DNA of 64,000 bases from a virus: positions 1-64,000 of IMG/VR virus record IMGVR_UViG_3300003323_000915. One strand, written 5' to 3'. How positions within the stretch are numbered: the stretch's first letter is position 1; every line of letters begins with the position of its first letter. Position numbers and translations under genes: made by a program. The notes beneath the pieces are model-generated. The model made no database searches. It had not been told where the DNA came from and was given only the letters and a program-made list of their open reading frames with translations. This document shows, piece after piece, positions 11,001-42,717 of this stretch.

Positions 11001-13812
11001 CACCGATAAAAACGAGATCAAGGAACTCACCGATGCGCAGACAAATCTCATCGACGAGTTTGATAAGAAAGCACGTTCCGGCGGCCGGTTTATTTCCGCT
11101 CTGCAAGACGTGTACAAGTCTTCTGATTTTGCATACAAAGCGGATTACCAGATCAAAAAATACAAAGAGGTCAATAACGGAAAAATACCGAAGGAGATTG
11201 AGGAAAAATTCCGTGACCTTGAAACAAAGCTCAATGCCGCCAATGAGAAGCTTCAAAAGTTAGAAGAGTCTCGAGGAAAAGAGTCTTCGAAAAAAACCGT
11301 ACAGGATATCCGCACCGATCTCCAAGCGCAAAAGGAACGCAGAGCAAAACTTGCCAAGGAACGAAAGGAGAAGATTGATAACTTCTTCGATTCACTGAAA
11401 GTAAAGAGTGATCCAAATAAACTAAACTCCATCACGCAAGTGATTGGTGAGTCTGTTTGGAATGGTTCTATCGAAGTTATGCGTGCCGCTGTGCTTGCCG
11501 GATCTGATGTCGCTATGGCTGTACAGGCCGGAATTGACTACGTGAAAGAACATTACCGAGGAAGCGATTTCGATGAGAATCAATTCAGGACAACTGTCGA
11601 GCCTGGCATCGAAAGGCTGGTGCCGACCGAGGAGGATGTAAAACTTCCGACGATGCGTAACGGTAAGCTGTCAATTCCACGGGCGTTAATACGTCAAGTA
11701 GTGGAGTCAGGCGCAAATACGATTGAGGAGGTAACAAATGATATTCACGATCTGATAAAAGACTCAATGCCGGAAGTGTCTGTTCGTGAAGTGCGTGATG
11801 CTATTACCAAGTACGGCGAGACGCGATCCTTGAGCAAGGAAGATCTTGATGTTAAAATACGCGAGCTAAAACGTGTCGGACGATTGGTGTCATCCCTGGA
11901 AGATGTTCAAAATAAATTACGACCACTGCGCAGTGGTCTTCAGCGCGACAAACTCACCGATCAGGAGCGCCGCATGCAACGGCAGGTCAAAGAGGCAATG
12001 AAGGATTTACCCATCGATGAAGATGAACTTAACCAGCAGTGGAAGACAGCGCTTGATGCCGTAAAATCACGCCTTAAAAATCAGATTTCAGATCTCGAAG
12101 ATCAGATAAAAACAGGTGAAAAAACACCGAAGAAAAAAGGCATAAAATATGACGAAGAAGCGACTGCTTTAAAGAATCAGCGCGATGCTTTGAAAAAAGT
12201 AATAGAGGATATTAACGGCAAAAACGGTATTTCTACCGAAGAAAAAGTACGTTTGGCGATAAAATCAGTAGGAGATAGTATTGCTGAATATGAGCGCAGA
12301 ATTCGTGAAAAAGACTTCGATAAAAAGAAAACTGAGCTTACACCTGAGACTCCGGAATTAAGGGAGATGCGCGCGAAGCGTGATCAGATAAAACAGGTAT
12401 ACAAGCAGCTTGAGAAGGATCTCGGTATTGCCGACAAAAAGAAGCTTGAAGCGTACAAGAAGAACATCAAAAAAACTATTGATCGGTATGAGTCGAGGAT
12501 AAAAAATAAGGATTTCGTCACAGAGAAAAAGAAGCCGCTTGACTTGGATAAAGAGGCGAAGGATTTGCGTATCGAACGCGATAAAATAAAATCTGAGTTT
12601 GAACTTGAGCAAGAAAAAAACAGATTGAATAATCGATCGCTGAGCGAAAAGGCATGGGATACTTTTGTTGATGTGGTAAATCTTCCAAAGTCAATGCTTG
12701 CATCGATCGATATGTCAGCGCCATTCCGCCAAGGTGCTGTACTTTCGTTTGCTAATCCGAAAGCCGGCGCTGCATCTTTCGCTGAAATGTTCCGTCAGGC
12801 GTTCTCCGAAAAGAAAGCAACCGAGTGGCTGGCCAAACTCAAAGAAAGCCCGGTATATGACACGATCAAGAAAAGTAAACTATATATCGCGGAACCGACA
12901 ACGAAACTGACTGCAAAGGAAGATCAGTTCATCTCCAATTTCGCGAGTAAAATTCCGCTGTTCAAAATCCCGTACAAAGCCAGTGAACGGGCGTACACCG
13001 GGTACCTGAATAAGCTCAGAGTTGATGTGTTCGTGAATGGTGCCGACAGACTGCAAGAAGCCGGGTTTACACCTGAATCAAATCCAGAGGCATACAAGGC
13101 TTGGGCTGATTTCATCAACAACGCTACGGGCCGCGGTAACCTTGGCGCACTGGAGGAGGCGGCAACAGTGCTGAATGGATTCTTCTTCTCGCCGAGGTTT
13201 GTAGCATCAAGGGTAAATCTCATGAATCCGATTAAATACGCAAAGATGCCACCAGAAGTTCGCAAGATGGCGATGAAAAATATGATCGCTTTTGTCGGGT
13301 TTAGCGCATTAGTGTTGACTATTGCAAGTGCGGCCGGCGCCGATGTTGAGCATGACCCACGCAGCTCTGATTTTGCCAAGATGAGAATCGGAGACACACG
13401 TTACGATATCCTTGCCGGATTCCAGCAGGTGATACGCCTTTTCGCTCAGCTTTCTTCCGGGCAACGGAAGAGCACAAGCACCGGTAAAATTACAGATCTT
13501 GATGGCAAGAAATTCCCGTTCGAAAATCGTGGTGATGTAGCATTGCGATTTGCTCGATCAAAGCTGGCCCCATCCGCAGGCAGCACGGTGAATTTACTTA
13601 CAGGAAAAGACATTGTAGGCCAGGAGGTTACCATTGAAGGCGAGGCGGTGAAGAATGTGATCCCTCTTTACATCCAAGATATTTATTCATTATACCAGAA
13701 AGAGACGCCAACTGGTCTTGTCTCATCGTTGATCCCGGCATTTTTCGGGGTTAGTGTACAGAACTATAGCAAGAAGAAGGAGAAGCCAAAAGAACCAATT
13801 TCTCCATGGTAA
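8026..13812 (+). CDS. Giant polyvalent internal virion protein with a metallopeptidase domain
   Basis: 1928 residues. N-terminus: two repeats of KWTPPE(E/D)D in a Gln/Glu-rich disordered region, then an Ala/Gly-rich segment (about 255-430) with hydrophobic helices. An HEAVH zinc-peptidase motif lies at residues 660-664, with HEFFAEF at 720-726 as the likely third-ligand region. Long Lys/Glu coiled-coil stretches cover about 1000-1540. The C-terminal part (about 1545-1800), with FRQGAVLSFANPKAG and KASERAYTGYLNKLR, matches what I know of the LPD38-type domain of large polyvalent proteins. Such proteins are packaged and delivered with the DNA. Low-complexity linkers at about 490-565 and 845-920 flank the peptidase, and each hides a small gene in another frame. 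Confidence 0.7.
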   Translation: MGKQVKWTPPEDDLVVDQNEQEKPAQKWTPPEEDAIVEPVKKKDQPNQSASSSDSQDLGEPSGKSTTNTPQLSEKQKATFRENVLKTPEQKKAEDLKNKFVDTQLKDAVGIDETQSKGFTESFLRTVQSGLSDQIPKEYYAQRLRMSKGNFGDLYDRRSDINAFGGPEFSKQLPKGTSIDAFSEWNNKQDFKTKQKSYDERAKLFLTEKLGAKGFEDLKQKFIQENQEERLGYEKNIQQQNQEVAIKTAGVTQDLKGINGAGDFLSFAGNMIGQALYRAPINLGTGPAGSIISESASIYDQQLDLIAQKEGISREEVIKRGLDKPAEGQALAVLAGTLDAASEFNIVGLFKKAAGKQLTENVVKQFVKGFVRGAAPEAVTEAAQGEIEEFAASKGAGTEYHPDAWRIATNAVGAFIGGGVLGGGANVKLSPILKSMPTQDVVNTATTGQSSNNIKSIEQAADIIDAKVQDADDTTVTKEVKQEEQSTQPEFKEPVITQNQGDDALQISEPTGVLPSSQEGTGSEGSERGGVEPVEQGTGTAEQGSQQKEAGRTNEGTQEKKSILNQDTDLTGEPKEDFMLTEGEQIKKVPDKKSLVNKLEEIGAPKKLIESISKSATLENYNSLLTLGKVYHTLNNAGIENKIYISNLSKLFGYKDTIVHEAVHLASIVAIDDYLYEKENDVKVRYLTDSQRESLDYIDNIFQKAKKKSKVKTYGYTDLHEFFAEFISSEKFRNRLSRDLESKSIVRRVADSIINFIEELTGLSLSKSKNNDVLEQLNKINSEIENVYDGRNKVIQEAVRSGRYVAYIHLGKMTANDAKTIIESAGIKVPDSILKLAKEENNNSQQNTVENENVQQQEQTEAGLGGQIQSTEGETKQRERGGESGRTHSQPGKEEIRSEENGGNGRQRKKSLLNRAHEGVSDEQVKSSIEKHGLTYEVESHISAEKSAQKFIDDVGVENAIEAVRNNEVDDGAAAFVWAKAIDEVGRKLAAATDKNEIKELTDAQTNLIDEFDKKARSGGRFISALQDVYKSSDFAYKADYQIKKYKEVNNGKIPKEIEEKFRDLETKLNAANEKLQKLEESRGKESSKKTVQDIRTDLQAQKERRAKLAKERKEKIDNFFDSLKVKSDPNKLNSITQVIGESVWNGSIEVMRAAVLAGSDVAMAVQAGIDYVKEHYRGSDFDENQFRTTVEPGIERLVPTEEDVKLPTMRNGKLSIPRALIRQVVESGANTIEEVTNDIHDLIKDSMPEVSVREVRDAITKYGETRSLSKEDLDVKIRELKRVGRLVSSLEDVQNKLRPLRSGLQRDKLTDQERRMQRQVKEAMKDLPIDEDELNQQWKTALDAVKSRLKNQISDLEDQIKTGEKTPKKKGIKYDEEATALKNQRDALKKVIEDINGKNGISTEEKVRLAIKSVGDSIAEYERRIREKDFDKKKTELTPETPELREMRAKRDQIKQVYKQLEKDLGIADKKKLEAYKKNIKKTIDRYESRIKNKDFVTEKKKPLDLDKEAKDLRIERDKIKSEFELEQEKNRLNNRSLSEKAWDTFVDVVNLPKSMLASIDMSAPFRQGAVLSFANPKAGAASFAEMFRQAFSEKKATEWLAKLKESPVYDTIKKSKLYIAEPTTKLTAKEDQFISNFASKIPLFKIPYKASERAYTGYLNKLRVDVFVNGADRLQEAGFTPESNPEAYKAWADFINNATGRGNLGALEEAATVLNGFFFSPRFVASRVNLMNPIKYAKMPPEVRKMAMKNMIAFVGFSALVLTIASAAGADVEHDPRSSDFAKMRIGDTRYDILAGFQQVIRLFAQLSSGQRKSTSTGKITDLDGKKFPFENRGDVALRFARSKLAPSAGSTVNLLTGKDIVGQEVTIEGEAVKNVIPLYIQDIYSLYQKETPTGLVSSLIPAFFGVSVQNYSKKKEKPKEPISPW
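9533..9718 (+). CDS. Small basic protein nested in the +1 frame of the giant virion gene
   Basis: 61 residues starting MPYKSASQRAYFQVHRKE and ending with KKRKAS. The ORF lies wholly inside the 1928-residue gene, in the +1 frame. The sequence reads like a genuine small phage protein of the type beginning MPYKS-QR-YF, whereas the host frame here is low-complexity Gly/Gln/Glu/Ser. That contrast suggests the small gene is the older sequence and the large gene reads through it as a linker. Expression is not shown by sequence alone. Confidence 0.5.
   Translation: MPYKSASQRAYFQVHRKELEAKGVNVEEWNQSSKGLVLPNKVASKKKLAERMKERKKRKAS
10577..10765 (+). CDS. Second small basic protein nested in the +1 frame of the giant virion gene
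   Basis: 62 residues starting MKTYSNKNKPKLGSGGRF; the C-terminal part contains RKKYGAKKMEAMAAKGKKA. Small phage proteins with the pattern LGSG-RF-L then GRKKYG-KKM are familiar. The host frame over the same bases is Gln/Glu/Gly/Arg low complexity. It shares its first seven residues (MKTYSNK) with the separate minus-strand gene at 54816-55304. Both nested genes sit in the same frame and flank the metallopeptidase insert. Confidence 0.5.
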   Translation: MKTYSNKNKPKLGSGGRFKALKEKLSKEKGVENPGALTASLGRKKYGAKKMEAMAAKGKKAS

Positions 13813-28571: not shown

Positions 28572-28855
28572 TAAAATATCTGATGAGAAAGCCAAATACA
28601 AAACACCATGAAAACAAGCGCAACAGTGATGCCAGACATGAACGCATTCCAGACGGAACAAAATATATATCCATCGGTGAAGTAGTACTCAAAGAAATTT
28701 CTGTATCCGTTCCGGTAGAATTGCACTGTACTAATGATTGATGTGATGATCCAGATTATAAATGCAACAATGTACATCGTGATCATTACTTTCACGCCAT
28801 CAGCAGTCATTGGTCCGCCGCTGTATATTGGTATTATGATTGGATATGATTGCAT
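28571..28855 (-). CDS. Two- to three-span membrane protein
   Basis: 94 residues with hydrophobic stretches at about 22-42 (VMITMYIVAFIIWIITSIIS) and 70-90 (GITVALVFMVFCIWLSH). No family recognised. Stops and starts abut its neighbours, fitting the packed minus-strand operon. Confidence 0.6.
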   Translation of the reverse strand: MQSYPIIIPIYSGGPMTADGVKVMITMYIVAFIIWIITSIISTVQFYRNGYRNFFEYYFTDGYIFCSVWNAFMSGITVALVFMVFCIWLSHQIF

Positions 28856-33256: not shown

Positions 33257-33850
33257 TTATGTAACTATCTGTTTAACAGATTTATTATTTTTCATTATAC
33301 CATGGTGTTTTAGAAGTTTATATACCACGGGGATACAGATTTCGCATTCCTCGGCGATGGCGGCAATGGTGGCCTTTGCGTAATACATTTCAATTGCCTT
33401 ACTGGCTAATTCCTCATTATCAAAAACAGACTTTCGTCCCAATTTGACTCCAATTCTCTTTTTATGTGCGAGGGCATTTTTCGTCCGTTCGCTTATCATA
33501 TTCCTTTCGAATTCCGCGAACACGCCGGCGATCTGGAAAGCCATGCGGCCAATGGCGGTGGTGGTGTCGAAATTGTCGGAGATCGAAATAAAGGTAGCTT
33601 TACGCTTGTCGAATTCGTTTATCAACTCTAATAGATGGCGCAATGATCGGCCTAGCCTGTCAAGCTTTTGAACAACAACAACGTCCCCCGGCTGAAGATC
33701 AGATAAAAGCCTCTCGAGATCTTCACGCTCAGTCTTGGTGCCGGATATTTTCTCTTGGTAGATGATCTCACAGCCGTATGTGGTCAGCGCGTGAACTTGG
33801 CGACCAAGGTCTTGTTCGGTTGTAGATACTCGTGCGTAACCTCGTTTCAT
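33257..33850 (-). CDS. Serine recombinase (resolvase/invertase family)
   Basis: 197 residues from ATG 33850, the usual small-resolvase length. The catalytic region shows GYARVSTTEQDL with nucleophile S9, then GDVVVVQKLDRLGRSLRHLL and FAEFERNMISERTKNALAHK. The C-terminus (about 145-185) has a helix-turn-helix with KATIAAIAEECEICIPVVYK. It may resolve genome multimers or invert a segment; no obvious pair of target sites was found near it. Plasmid or transposon origin is possible. Confidence 0.85.
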   Translation of the reverse strand: MKRGYARVSTTEQDLGRQVHALTTYGCEIIYQEKISGTKTEREDLERLLSDLQPGDVVVVQKLDRLGRSLRHLLELINEFDKRKATFISISDNFDTTTAIGRMAFQIAGVFAEFERNMISERTKNALAHKKRIGVKLGRKSVFDNEELASKAIEMYYAKATIAAIAEECEICIPVVYKLLKHHGIMKNNKSVKQIVT

Positions 33851-33852
33851 GG

Positions 33853-34074
33853 TTATCCGCAAATTATCCAGTAGATCCAAAAACCAAAACACAACGAAAG
33901 GAAGAACACCACAACTATTGCCACGAGGCAAAAAACACCCTTCCACCATAGGTCAATTTCGTCCTCATGTTTTTTTATTGTGATCGTCTTTCCAATAAAG
34001 TAAGGAACGAACACGAACGCCGCAATAATTGCGGGATACATCAGGCTAATCCAAATCCGGTATGTCATTTTCAT
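33853..34074 (-). CDS. Two-span membrane protein
   Basis: 73 residues from ATG 34074; ATG 34068 is an alternative. Spans at about 9-27 (LMYPAIIAAFVFVPYFIG) and 47-70 (VFCLVAIVVVFFLSLCFGFWI). Stop lies two bases before the recombinase ATG. Unknown function. Confidence 0.6.
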   Translation of the reverse strand: MKMTYRIWISLMYPAIIAAFVFVPYFIGKTITIKKHEDEIDLWWKGVFCLVAIVVVFFLSLCFGFWIYWIICG

Positions 34075-34884: not shown

Positions 34885-35319
34885 TTAAGCTGTGGCGCGG
34901 TATGTTGGTATTTCTGAAAGAGTAACAGCCGGTTGGATGTGACCAATACGATTTTTACTCATTGGATACTTCTCACTTACAAGCTCCAAAGCCTTTAAAT
35001 ATGACTCCAGTGCCTTAACTCCTAAATCGGAAATGCCGATTGCCGTAGAACCAGGTACCCTCAAATACTCGTAAGATCCAATAAAGCCCTTTGTCAAAAG
35101 CCCATGGCAATAACCGTGCATTTTCCTGATCTCTCTGTTATTGTTGGTGATATTCTCAAGAAATGCCTGCCGACTTACAACATTGCGCTCAATAGTGCCC
35201 AAATAATGGTTTAAACAACTCAAAAGCCAAAGTTCTTGTTTGTTGATCTTGAAGATTTTAAACACCTCGAATGAGGCCTTTTTGTAGATAAAATCGTGCT
35301 GGCAAGGATCTATCAACAT
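34885..35319 (-). CDS. Probable winged-helix DNA-binding regulator
   Basis: 144 residues. Helical N-terminal region (KINKQELWLLSCLNHYLG) and a recognition/wing-like section: CHGLLTKGFIGSYEYLRVPG then AIGISDLGVKALESYLKALE, which reads as the final helix and wing of a MarR/PadR-type winged helix. The gene is preceded by a 350-base non-coding region with a strong inverted repeat at 35463-35496, which could be its own operator. It is the best candidate in the window for binding the AGTAACA-NN-TGTTACT operators, by position only. Confidence 0.5.
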   Translation of the reverse strand: MLIDPCQHDFIYKKASFEVFKIFKINKQELWLLSCLNHYLGTIERNVVSRQAFLENITNNNREIRKMHGYCHGLLTKGFIGSYEYLRVPGSTAIGISDLGVKALESYLKALELVSEKYPMSKNRIGHIQPAVTLSEIPTYRATA

Positions 35320-35671: not shown

Positions 35672-35926
35672 TCAAAACGGGCACCATCCCGGACCATGCG
35701 CGGCTACCCATTCCTTGATCGCCGCATCCGACTTATCGACCGGATCTTCTCGTACAATGATCCGCGGCGCCGCGGATACCTCGGCTTTTGTGAGCCATTC
35801 TTGGACTCGGTTGGAGATGGTGTTCCGGATTTTTTCTCCACCATCATGGATGACCCAATCACCGGATTTTAGCATCTCTTGGACAATCGGCAAGGCGAGT
35901 ATTTGGTGCTGTTTTTCGTTGAGCAT
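35672..35926 (-). CDS. Small protein of unknown function
   Basis: 84 residues, MLNEKQHQILALPIVQEMLK followed by GDWVIHDGGEKIRNTISNRV and an Ala/Trp-rich end (WVAAHGPGWCPF). It lies directly after the iteron-rich region, so it may be the first gene transcribed away from it. A degenerate operator lies about 30 bases upstream. Confidence 0.55.
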   Translation of the reverse strand: MLNEKQHQILALPIVQEMLKSGDWVIHDGGEKIRNTISNRVQEWLTKAEVSAAPRIIVREDPVDKSDAAIKEWVAAHGPGWCPF

Positions 35927-35955
35927 TTTGAGTGATTTTTGAGGTTAAAATTTAT

Positions 35956-35971
35956 AGTAACATTTGTCAAC
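35956..35971 (-). promoter_or_regulatory. Degenerate copy of the palindromic operator
   Basis: AGTAACATTTGTCAAC keeps the left arm of AGTAACA-NN-TGTTACT but loses most of the right arm. It lies 30 bases before the ATG at 35926 and touches the first iteron. Confidence 0.4.
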
Positions 35972-36191
35972 TGTACTAACTGTACTGGTACTGTACTGGT
36001 TACTGTACTAGTGCAGTTGCCTAGCATACTGGTATACTGTACTGCTCACTCTCCTATATGTAGGAGAGCAGTACAGTAGTACAGTTCGTTTTTGAGCTAA
36101 AAACGCGGTTTTTAGTGATTCTTCGAAATTAGCCTGATTTCGCGGTTTTGTCATTTTAGTACAGTTAGACAATTACACAGACCAGTACAGT
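35970..36191. repeat. Iteron region: nine copies of ACTGTACT
   Basis: The octamer occurs five times forward (35970, 35979, 35990, 36002, 36036) and four times inverted as AGTACAGT (36070, 36078, 36158, 36184). Between the two sets is a large inverted repeat: GTACTG(CTCA)CTCTCCTA, loop TATG, TAGGAGAG-CAGTAC (36038-36074). The region is non-coding and lies beside the primase-helicase gene. It resembles an iteron-type replication origin or a multi-site operator. Confidence 0.75.
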
Positions 36192-36220
36192 TGATTCTGG
36201 TATTTTTGGCTCCTGTTTTT

Positions 36221-36247
36221 AGGTCAATTTTTGACCTGTTTTTTTCG
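36221..36247 (+). terminator. Possible terminator
   Basis: AGGTCAA, loop TTT, TTGACCT followed on the plus strand by GTTTTTTT. The hairpin overlaps the stop of the minus-strand gene 36224-36409. The T run faces the plus strand, where no gene is seen upstream, so it may limit transcription out of the iteron region. Confidence 0.45.
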
Positions 36248-36409
36248 TCTTCCGGTACCTGGTCTTTGGTGGTTTTCTTTAACCCCAAAAACGCCTTGAG
36301 CGATGTCGGTACAATGCCATCCGCAGCGCGTGCATTTTCGCCGGACGCCGACTTTGAGTTGTTTGAACCGGTACTTTGGATGCGGGCAAGTCTTCTGTTT
36401 GTCGGTCAT
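36224..36409 (-). CDS. Small zinc-ribbon-like protein
   Basis: 61 residues with KTCPHPKYRFKQL and RRKCTRCGWHC: four Cys plus His could bind zinc. Basic C-terminus (HQRPGTGRRKKQVKN). It starts 11 bases after the primase-helicase stop, so it may be a replication accessory protein. Inference from context. Confidence 0.55.
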   Translation of the reverse strand: MTDKQKTCPHPKYRFKQLKVGVRRKCTRCGWHCTDIAQGVFGVKENHQRPGTGRRKKQVKN

Positions 36410-36420
36410 ATGAATTTGGT

Positions 36421-38364
36421 TTAAAACGGCAATCCATCTGGAGGCTCGTCTGCCTCAACAGGTGCTGGTAGATCGAATGAAAGTTGCGGGGATGGTTCCG
36501 GATACTCGCTGTATTGTTGCGGTTCGGTGAATCCATCGGCGGTGATGACCAGCTTCCATAAAGCCTTCGGGTCTTTATCGCTGCCGCTTTTAATGATCCA
36601 GCCATCTCGTCTGAATTTACGTATGAAGGTTTCGGCTTTGGTTTTACCGATTCCGAATTGGGCACGAAGCTCTTCCACAAGATCCCGGTAAACCATCGGG
36701 CCGTCGGCAAACGCTGCAACCAATAGCTGCCGGGTATTATTTTCGTTGTCCTGCTTACGCTCAGTGACAGTGCCGACCACTTCTGGTAGGCCATCCTTGT
36801 CGTGCCAAAATGAAAAAGTCTCAAATGGCTTGTCGCGCGAACTTTCGCATTTGACCTTGGTGACGTTTTCCTGGGTATCCAATTCGAGCTCTATAGTCAT
36901 CTCTGCCTTGTTTAGGAGCTCAGATCCGATGTGTCCGCGGGCGTTGCTGTCGGTTTTGTTCATGTGAAGGATGTTGATCACATGGCAATTGTATTTCAGG
37001 ATCTGGCGCTCAAGCCAAACGATGAGTTCTGTGGACTGGTCCGGGTCGTTAATGTTGGACATCAAATCGCGGATACCATCGATGATCACAAGTTTTGGCG
37101 TTATGGACCAATAGCGCAGCGTATCGGCGATGATCTGCTGGCGTTCCGAGTAGGACTTACCCCGGAGGTCGAAAACCGGTATATGGTGTCCTGTGAGCGT
37201 CCGGATGCGTTCGCGCATTAGGTATGCCCGGCGCTTGCCCTGCTCGGTGTCGAAAAGAAGGATTTCTTTTGGGTTGGTGTTGGGCCTCTTAAGGTATTCT
37301 GCGATCAGCCAGGATATAAACAGCGACTTGCGGGATTTTTTCTTACCGATGATGAGTGAGTGGTTCCCATGGGTTGCGATCGGGACGCCCTGAATGTATA
37401 AAAGCGGTATTTCAGCCGGTGGCTCCTGGTCGATCATCACATCGTCCCACATTTCCTTAATCGCCAGCGGAAGCCGGGTTGGTAGTTCCCGGATGTACTG
37501 AATCGTCACCTCTTTGATGATATCCGCCAAGTCAAGTCCGTCATTTCTGGATGGATCAAGATCAATCACCCGGGAATCGGCGATGGTCTGCAACTTTTCG
37601 TTTGCCGACGCTGCTCCTTCGCGGCCTTTTGGATTTCGGACTGATCCATCGGGCATCAGATCTCCATTGTCGCAGTCGTAGCATACCCAGATCGTGCGAT
37701 TTTTTAAAACCGGCAGCTTCTCGTCGGTAAGACCCTTGGATCCGCCGGTGGCGACGTAGATAAATTCCTGAAGGTAATCTGAAAATTTCCGAGTGAGCAT
37801 GGCTGCCGTCTTTTCAGATTCGACCAGGATCACTGTGGCTTTGGGGTATTTTGTTAGGTGGTATTCGTAGAACATGGATGGGTAATACCCGGAGTCGCGC
37901 TGGAAAAGGTGCATCGGCGGGTTTTGGTGGTCCCGCTTCATAGCACCATCTGCAAAATTGTACAGCATTTTCTTGGCACCCGTCAGGCGGCCATCGTGGT
38001 CGCGGAAATAAAAGGTAACTGTGTGTTGCCCGGTGATCTTTTTTGGATCGGCTGGTACCGGGTCAATCGTTGTGTCCTGGAATATCCAGTTCCAATTTGG
38101 CTCCTCCAAAAATTTCTGCTTCACGCGCGGCGGTGGTTCGATGGCTTTGATTTGATGGGTTCCGTTCATGGCCGCGCCATTCAGGTGGCCCTTCCATCCG
38201 CAATTATTGCAAAGCCATACACCTTTGTCGATGTTTACCGACAGGCATTTACCTTTTTTGTTGTGAGCCTTTCGCTCCGATGAGCATTCCGGACATAAGG
38301 TGTAAACCTGTCCCGTTGTTCGGCCAGGCGGAATGGAGATGTTATAGTCGGAAAAATCAGACAT
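36421..38364 (-). CDS. Primase-helicase fusion (zinc finger, TOPRIM, RecA-like ATPase)
   Basis: 647 residues. Zinc finger C24-x2-C27 and C52-x2-C55; TOPRIM domain with VILVESEKTAAML (E182) and WVCYDCDNGD (D230, D232); RecA-like ATPase with a variant P-loop GKKKSRKS (340-347) and KLVIIDGIRD (D429); C-terminal winged-helix region (MVYRDLVEELRAQF, KFRRDGWIIK). This is the plan of phage replicative primase-helicases of the DnaG/RepA type. It would prime and unwind DNA at the phage origin; the neighbouring iteron region fits. The P-loop lacks the usual GxGKS spacing, but keeps K-S. Confidence 0.8.
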   Translation of the reverse strand: MSDFSDYNISIPPGRTTGQVYTLCPECSSERKAHNKKGKCLSVNIDKGVWLCNNCGWKGHLNGAAMNGTHQIKAIEPPPRVKQKFLEEPNWNWIFQDTTIDPVPADPKKITGQHTVTFYFRDHDGRLTGAKKMLYNFADGAMKRDHQNPPMHLFQRDSGYYPSMFYEYHLTKYPKATVILVESEKTAAMLTRKFSDYLQEFIYVATGGSKGLTDEKLPVLKNRTIWVCYDCDNGDLMPDGSVRNPKGREGAASANEKLQTIADSRVIDLDPSRNDGLDLADIIKEVTIQYIRELPTRLPLAIKEMWDDVMIDQEPPAEIPLLYIQGVPIATHGNHSLIIGKKKSRKSLFISWLIAEYLKRPNTNPKEILLFDTEQGKRRAYLMRERIRTLTGHHIPVFDLRGKSYSERQQIIADTLRYWSITPKLVIIDGIRDLMSNINDPDQSTELIVWLERQILKYNCHVINILHMNKTDSNARGHIGSELLNKAEMTIELELDTQENVTKVKCESSRDKPFETFSFWHDKDGLPEVVGTVTERKQDNENNTRQLLVAAFADGPMVYRDLVEELRAQFGIGKTKAETFIRKFRRDGWIIKSGSDKDPKALWKLVITADGFTEPQQYSEYPEPSPQLSFDLPAPVEADEPPDGLPF

Positions 38365-41960: not shown

Positions 41961-42203
41961 ATGGCAAAGACTAAAGCGAGCAAGCAACCTCAAATTATAT
42001 CACTCCGGTACCTTTGTGAAAAGGCGGATGTAAAACACTACAAGGTTTACAACAATCTTCGCGGTGAATACTCATCCCTTTCCCATGATGAGAAAGCGAA
42101 GCTTGCAAATACTTTATTCGATGAGGTGACTCCATTTTTGAATGGTCTCGGTTATTACATCACCATTGCCAGGATCAAAGATCCAGTTCCAAAGCAGAAG
42201 TAG
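41961..42203 (+). CDS. Small DNA-binding-like protein
   Basis: 80 residues, basic: SLRYLCEKADVKHYKVYNNL resembles the start of a short helix-turn-helix, followed by a helix (LSHDEKAKLANTLFDEVTPF). Expressed divergently from the neighbouring operon and preceded by the operator-like palindrome, so a regulatory role is possible. Its end overlaps the convergent gene by 29 bases. Confidence 0.55.
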   Translation: MAKTKASKQPQIISLRYLCEKADVKHYKVYNNLRGEYSSLSHDEKAKLANTLFDEVTPFLNGLGYYITIARIKDPVPKQK

Positions 42204-42717
42204 TCTCATCCTCCATAAACGAATCCTCCTCTTTCTTTTTCTTCTTGTCTTTTTTCAGGATCGGCTTGTGCTGATTGATTTGCTCTATCGACATTTCCTT
42301 TGTGTATTGCGAAAACTCTTCGCCTTCGATAGTAACGCCGACCATCAATGAATCTTCCGGATACGGGATAACGAACACCTGCGTCTCTTCTTCCTTATAA
42401 CCCTGCTCAATCTGCATATCGGCGAACTTCCGATTTGCTTTCAGAACTTTAAGTCCTTTTGTTGGCGGAATGGTGATATCAAACGGAGCCTCAACATCAG
42501 GAGTTCCGCCATTTAAAACCTCCATGAATTTTTCTTTTATGTTTTCCAGGCGATCGATAGCGCGCGAGGCAAGTGAGGATTGTTTTTCAAGTTCTTGGAC
42601 TTGCTCCTCTTCAAGTTCAATCTTTTCAGTGTGAATGATAGTCTCAGCAGCATTATCCTGAATCCATTTTGCAAGATTCTCCGGAGTAAATGTTTGTGGT
42701 AAGCAGCGGTGTAGCAT
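42175..42717 (-). CDS. Protein of unknown function with coiled coil and acidic tail
   Basis: 180 residues from ATG 42717 (MLHRCLPQTFTPENLAKWIQ). A coiled coil with EKIELEEEQVQELEKQSSLA covers about 35-75. A compact middle part (GLKVLKANRKFADMQIEQGY, YPEDSLMVGVTIEGEEF) precedes a Lys-rich then acidic tail (FMEDETTSALELDL). An ATG at 42738 is in frame but lies inside the upstream gene. Confidence 0.55.
   Translation of the reverse strand: MLHRCLPQTFTPENLAKWIQDNAAETIIHTEKIELEEEQVQELEKQSSLASRAIDRLENIKEKFMEVLNGGTPDVEAPFDITIPPTKGLKVLKANRKFADMQIEQGYKEEETQVFVIPYPEDSLMVGVTIEGEEFSQYTKEMSIEQINQHKPILKKDKKKKKEEDSFMEDETTSALELDL

Follow-up and report, generated by a model that had tools for sequence, protein, structure and literature searches.

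An iteron array beside a RepA-type primase-helicase gene as a probable phage replication origin

The array and its surroundings

We analyzed a window of 64,000 b, bases 1-64000 of a viral record of 77,248 b (G000). Within a non-coding stretch (35927-36223) flanked by minus-strand genes, copies of the octamer ACTGTACT converge from both sides on a palindrome. The features of this region are listed by window position.

35672-35926, minus strand: 84-aa gene directly after the array, in the same place in G001, G002, G003, and L172
35970-36191, no strand: iteron array of nine exact copies of ACTGTACT, five forward and then four reverse
36010-36017, minus strand: degenerate iteron ACTGCACT, with one mismatch
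36036-36077, no strand: extended hairpin ACTGTACTG-CTCA-CTCTCCTA-TATG-TAGGAGAG-CAGTACAGT
36049-36068, no strand: core palindrome CTCTCCTA-TATG-TAGGAGAG
36224-36409, minus strand: 61-aa zinc-ribbon ORF between the helicase gene and the array; its homologue in L171 (48%) adjoins the helicase
36421-38364, minus strand: primase-helicase of 647 aa, with a zinc finger and DUF6371 primase-type domain, a RepA-type AAA_25 helicase, and a C-terminal winged helix
36532-36747, minus strand: predicted C-terminal winged helix (aa 540-611), the proposed reader of the iterons
36604-36645, minus strand: recognition helix (aa 574-587, KTKAETFIRKF...), which includes residue 578

The cluster of ACTGTACT is real and far beyond chance. 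Forward copies start at 35970, 35979, 35990, 36002, and 36036, and reverse copies at 36070, 36078, 36158, and 36184. A preliminary description of this DNA had reported five plus four octamers in 222 b, in non-coding DNA beside the primase-helicase and zinc-ribbon genes, and had judged such a cluster improbable. We recovered the same counts, orientations, and setting, and the top cluster of any 8-mer per 300 b in 60 shuffled windows was three copies in 56 windows and four copies in the other 4, compared to the nine observed. The search for the octamer elsewhere that had been suggested found it to be infrequent: there was a single further copy in the window, at 28725 (whole-window expectation, 0.92 ± 0.98 copies), and none in positions 58000-77248 of the record. 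We dropped ACTGTACT itself as a conserved motif, as it does not cluster in the related phages G001-G003 described below, and we also set aside viral contigs with three copies as parallels, many of these being evenly spaced tandem repeats.

The long inverted repeat previously described at the center of the array was also found, though its left arm has a 4-nt bulge (CTCA). The iterons on either side of the core pair together (ACTGTACTG/CAGTACAGT), and the DNA fold of the hairpin has a free energy of -16.1 kcal/mol (z of -5.5). The core is an imperfect palindrome, and the AT-rich part is limited to the short center CTATATGTA. A terminator was rejected as the explanation of the hairpin: no T run follows it, and a terminator scan did not list it.

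The helicase domain of the window protein scored 24.3 bits against AAA_25, under the cut-off of 27, and that of a homologue (L072) scored 47.7 bits, over the cut-off. There was no Pfam match to DUF927 or D5 in the helicase at an E value of 0.001 (window) or 0.1 (relatives), and a helicase profile gave no sequence match among solved structures. The winged helix was modeled by AlphaFold with pLDDT values of 85-96 across its first 70 residues, and its structural matches were the winged helices of BlaI, MecI, SarX, and MarR. Because the Foldseek matches were weak (best E of 8e-3) and the VIA-align Z scores middling (best 8.0), we take them as support for the fold class only. A serine recombinase (resolvase/invertase) gene lies at 33257-33949, in the early region.

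Arrays in related phages and at other helicase loci

The closest relatives that we found were three viral contigs of 77-78 kb. The terminase of the record had about 25% relatedness to those of Flavobacterium phages, and megablast against known phage DNA found no relatives. The contigs are related to the record at 83% (G002) and 79% (G003) in the terminase and at 56-58% (G001) in the helicase. We take all three to be closed genomes because they have terminal direct repeats of 123-127 b; no terminal direct repeat longer than 10 b was present in G000.

We scanned the four whole genomes for clusters of octamers in mixed orientation. There was one leading array each in G000, G001, and G002, and a weaker array of four copies in G003. 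Each relative's array is built around a palindrome and has its own word: GCTAGGC in G001 (nine copies), AGTGTCCT in G002 (seven), ACTCTCCC in G003 (four), and, in a further phage, AACCGAGT in L172 (seven). The distance from the end of the helicase gene to the array is about 0.2 kb in G000, 0 kb in G001, 2.9 kb in G002, 4.3 kb in G003, and 1.2 kb in L172. Even among these close relatives the N-terminus of the helicase is swapped, being of the DUF6371 primase type in G000, Prim-Pol in G001, and a DnaB N-domain in G002 and G003. G001-G003 also have a conserved 144-aa gene (window 34885-35319) farther downstream, past the array and the small gene. Separately, G003 has a second four-copy cluster of mixed-orientation octamers (ATATCCAG, 41994-42227), and short tandem repeats with 6-b and 15-b periods lie outside the origin region at G001:58747-59065 and G003:13202-13538.

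A gene of the 84-aa type is directly 3' of the array in all five phages in which we found it (G000-G003 and L172), and in G002, G003, and L172 the array adjoins this gene and is 1.2-4.3 kb from the helicase. The array could be an origin with a different reader of the octamers, such as the 84-aa protein, and the helicase would then be brought in secondarily, in the way that RepC recruits RepA in RSF1010. G004, a closed genome with a full-length primase-helicase (50% identity), had no array anywhere by the same search and no small gene, and L171 had neither in the sequence examined, both as expected if the small protein were the reader. However, many other loci have arrays and no detectable homologue of the small gene, and the co-variation described below points to the tail of the helicase. 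We consider a separate reader improbable.

We surveyed the surroundings of related helicase genes in viral contigs, phages, and Bacteroidota genomes. Single-protein scans gave nothing, and alignment-based scans succeeded; these and phage records yielded 249 loci, and the helicase was matched in 246 of them. Removal of redundancy left 149 loci of Bacteroidota phages and elements with the same RepA-type (AAA_25) helicase. The helicase is also encoded in plasmid records. Loci were divided into 400-b bins set from the helicase stop codon, with thresholds that were picked after the first examples and applied alike to all bins.

Repeats were enriched only in the first 400 b after the helicase stop. 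Among the 149 loci, at least four mixed-orientation 7-mers were present in this bin in 22.1%, compared to at most 4.4% in the 21 other bins, and at least five in 14.1%, compared to at most 1.6%. A TATA-centered palindrome with a GC stem was present there in 30.9% of loci and in at most 4.6% in other bins. Exact 8-mer clusters occurred in 24 of the 249 loci and in 1 of 747 shuffled loci. The usual layout is iterons, GC stem, TATATA center, GC stem, and inverted iterons, and in 21 of 22 scorable loci the nearest iterons flanking the core formed an inverted pair. No core or array was detectable in about 70-78% of helicase loci. The core center in the window, CCTATATGTAGG, fits this family of palindromes and resembles cores such as GCCTATATATAGGC and CCCTATATGTAGGG, which lie 3' of related helicases.

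The survey also bears on whether the array is a multi-site operator. In that case a phage regulator (the tail of the helicase, or either the 84-aa or the zinc-ribbon protein) would bind the octamers and govern how the downstream gene is transcribed. In the window, a gene on the same strand follows the array, the largest nearby downstream ORF was co-directional in 28 of the 29 loci scored, and the structural matches to the winged helix are mostly transcription regulators. However, the downstream gene varies widely among loci and the array stays after the helicase. In addition, operators do not usually have a conserved AT-centered palindrome flanked on each side by inverted repeats, and the repeats co-vary with a replicative helicase. 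There was no match to a sigma-70-like promoter within the array, although the promoters of Bacteroidota depart from that consensus. A simple operator is much less likely than an origin, and we give it quite a low probability.

Co-variation of the repeats with the helicase tail

Differences among the relatives suggest a helicase that itself reads the repeats, through a DNA-binding tail that changes along with them. Between the near-identical loci L072 and L073, nucleotide identity is mostly 0.9-1.0 before the C-terminus of the helicase, 0.5-0.75 over the C-terminus and the repeats, and about 0.98 after them. The helicases of L185 and L186 are also near-identical; among the 150 C-terminal residues compared, they differ where the recognition helix begins, in the wing, and in the extreme tail. 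The start of the recognition helix is GVAKAK in L185 and GEKKAK in L186, a change at two positions, and the iterons are TGGTTCAA and TGGTGCAA, respectively. In L191, GVAKAK is as in L185, and the word GGTTCAA is also kept.

The identity of residue 578 was associated with the presence of GG in the repeat. Across 51 loci, GG was present in 23 of the 26 with Lys at this position and in none of the six with Val (Fisher p = 1.3e-5). In a ranking of 314 columns by association, position 578 was second and V327, in the ATPase domain, was first; because a column of the ATPase domain ranks higher, we treat the correlation at 578 as supporting evidence only. Mutual information by itself was rejected as proof of the reader, as phylogeny confounds it, and the same confounding applies to the test of residue 578.

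The array as a probable origin and known systems

We conclude that the nine-octamer array around the palindrome is most likely a DNA replication origin. We favor an origin over a multi-site operator because the place and architecture of the array are kept in relatives and its sequence changes completely, in step with the part of the replicative helicase that would bind DNA. The preliminary description had proposed a candidate origin, and the comparison of relatives supports that proposal; the description did not include the helicase as the likely binder or the wider family of the palindrome. We estimate a probability of roughly 0.8 that the array is the phage origin, or one of several, and is read by the helicase's own C-terminal winged helix. 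The cumulative GC skew, which had been suggested as a check, did not turn at the array in any of G000-G003. The minima were 7-10 kb away, that of G000 near the divergence of transcription, and we dropped GC skew as evidence for an origin. Also weighing against this reading are the lack of an array in G004, the separation of array and helicase in G002, G003, and L172, and the many helicase loci with no detectable core or array.

We propose that helicase subunits would bind both inverted sets of octamers directly, through the C-terminal winged helix. By analogy with other systems, two rings may then assemble head to head around the AT-centered palindrome, the duplex would open at the palindrome, and the fused primase domain would lay the first primers. 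The origin would fire at the array.

Several known replicons combine some of these elements. The alpha protein of phage P4 has a helicase of the SF3 family, a different family from that found here. It joins a Toprim-type primase and a helicase to a winged helix by which origin repeats are bound (PMC4234260), the same combination as is proposed for the window protein. ORF904 of pRN1 likewise has a primase, helicase, and winged helix in one protein and an origin just downstream of its gene, with a stem-loop that is kept and varies in sequence among relatives; it differs in that its helicase is SF3 and its large stem-loop has no iterons (PMC4234260). The RSF1010 (IncQ) replicon also combines iterons and stem-loops with a primase and a RepA-type helicase, but there RepC, which is distinct from the helicase, binds to the iterons and opens oriV before RepA is loaded (PMC4234260, PMC8965321). 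In contrast, the helicase here has a predicted winged helix of its own, and the iterons are short and in both orientations.

The arrangement is closest to that of PICI/SaPI origins, which have the same layout and are functional in vivo (PMC6092414). That layout is described as common to no other known bacterial replicon (PMC6092414). The PICI/SaPI origin is just 3' of the initiator-helicase gene, and the window array is 230 b past the helicase stop, separated from it by a single 61-aa ORF; in both, two sets of short iterons flank an AT-rich stretch. The C-terminus of the PICI/SaPI helicase recognizes the iterons (PMC7581432), and the winged-helix model and the co-variation suggest the same here. 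However, the helicases of SaPI (Rep) and SCC (Cch/Cch2) belong to the DUF927 or D5 type, whereas the helicase here is of the RepA type (AAA_25), its N-terminus may be a DUF6371 primase, a Prim-Pol, or a DnaB-N module depending on the relative, and a GC-stemmed TATA palindrome is at the center. Because the helicase is not PICI-type, we do not assign the array to the PICI origins, although the arrangement is PICI-like.

More cautiously, we lean toward a widespread replicon of Bacteroidota phages and mobile elements in which the RepA-type helicase is its own origin-recognition protein. A few residues of the recognition helix and wing would set the iteron, the N-terminal primase or DnaB-N modules would be interchangeable, and the tail and origin would move as one cassette. 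A literature search found no paper about iteron-type origins in Bacteroides phages. The landmark of a helicase stop, a TATA-centered palindrome, and inverted repeats would allow origins to be called in many such genomes. Were the helicase the reader of its own origin, helicase activity and origin recognition would be united in one RepA-type protein. The natural swaps would be ready-made pairs for matching residues to the bases that they read.

We also considered a site for recombination, partition, or telomere formation (a res site for a serine recombinase, a centromere, or a protelomerase target). The resolvase gene is about 2 kb from the array, and L051, another contig in which ACTGTACT repeats surround a palindrome, encodes a telomere resolvase. 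However, the core in the window is an imperfect palindrome, arrays track the helicase across loci, and there is no protelomerase in this record. A telomere was rejected, as PF16684 had no match in the 77,248 b of this possibly incomplete record. Together, sites of this kind are very improbable, and an origin read by the helicase remains our preferred interpretation. In L051 (IMGVR_UViG_3300008255_000170), which encodes ParA as well as the telomere resolvase (PF16684), ACTGTACT surrounds a palindrome (CTCCTTATCTAGCTAGATAAGGAG) at 11320-11640, adjoining the resolvase gene, and this is possibly the telomere site of that contig.
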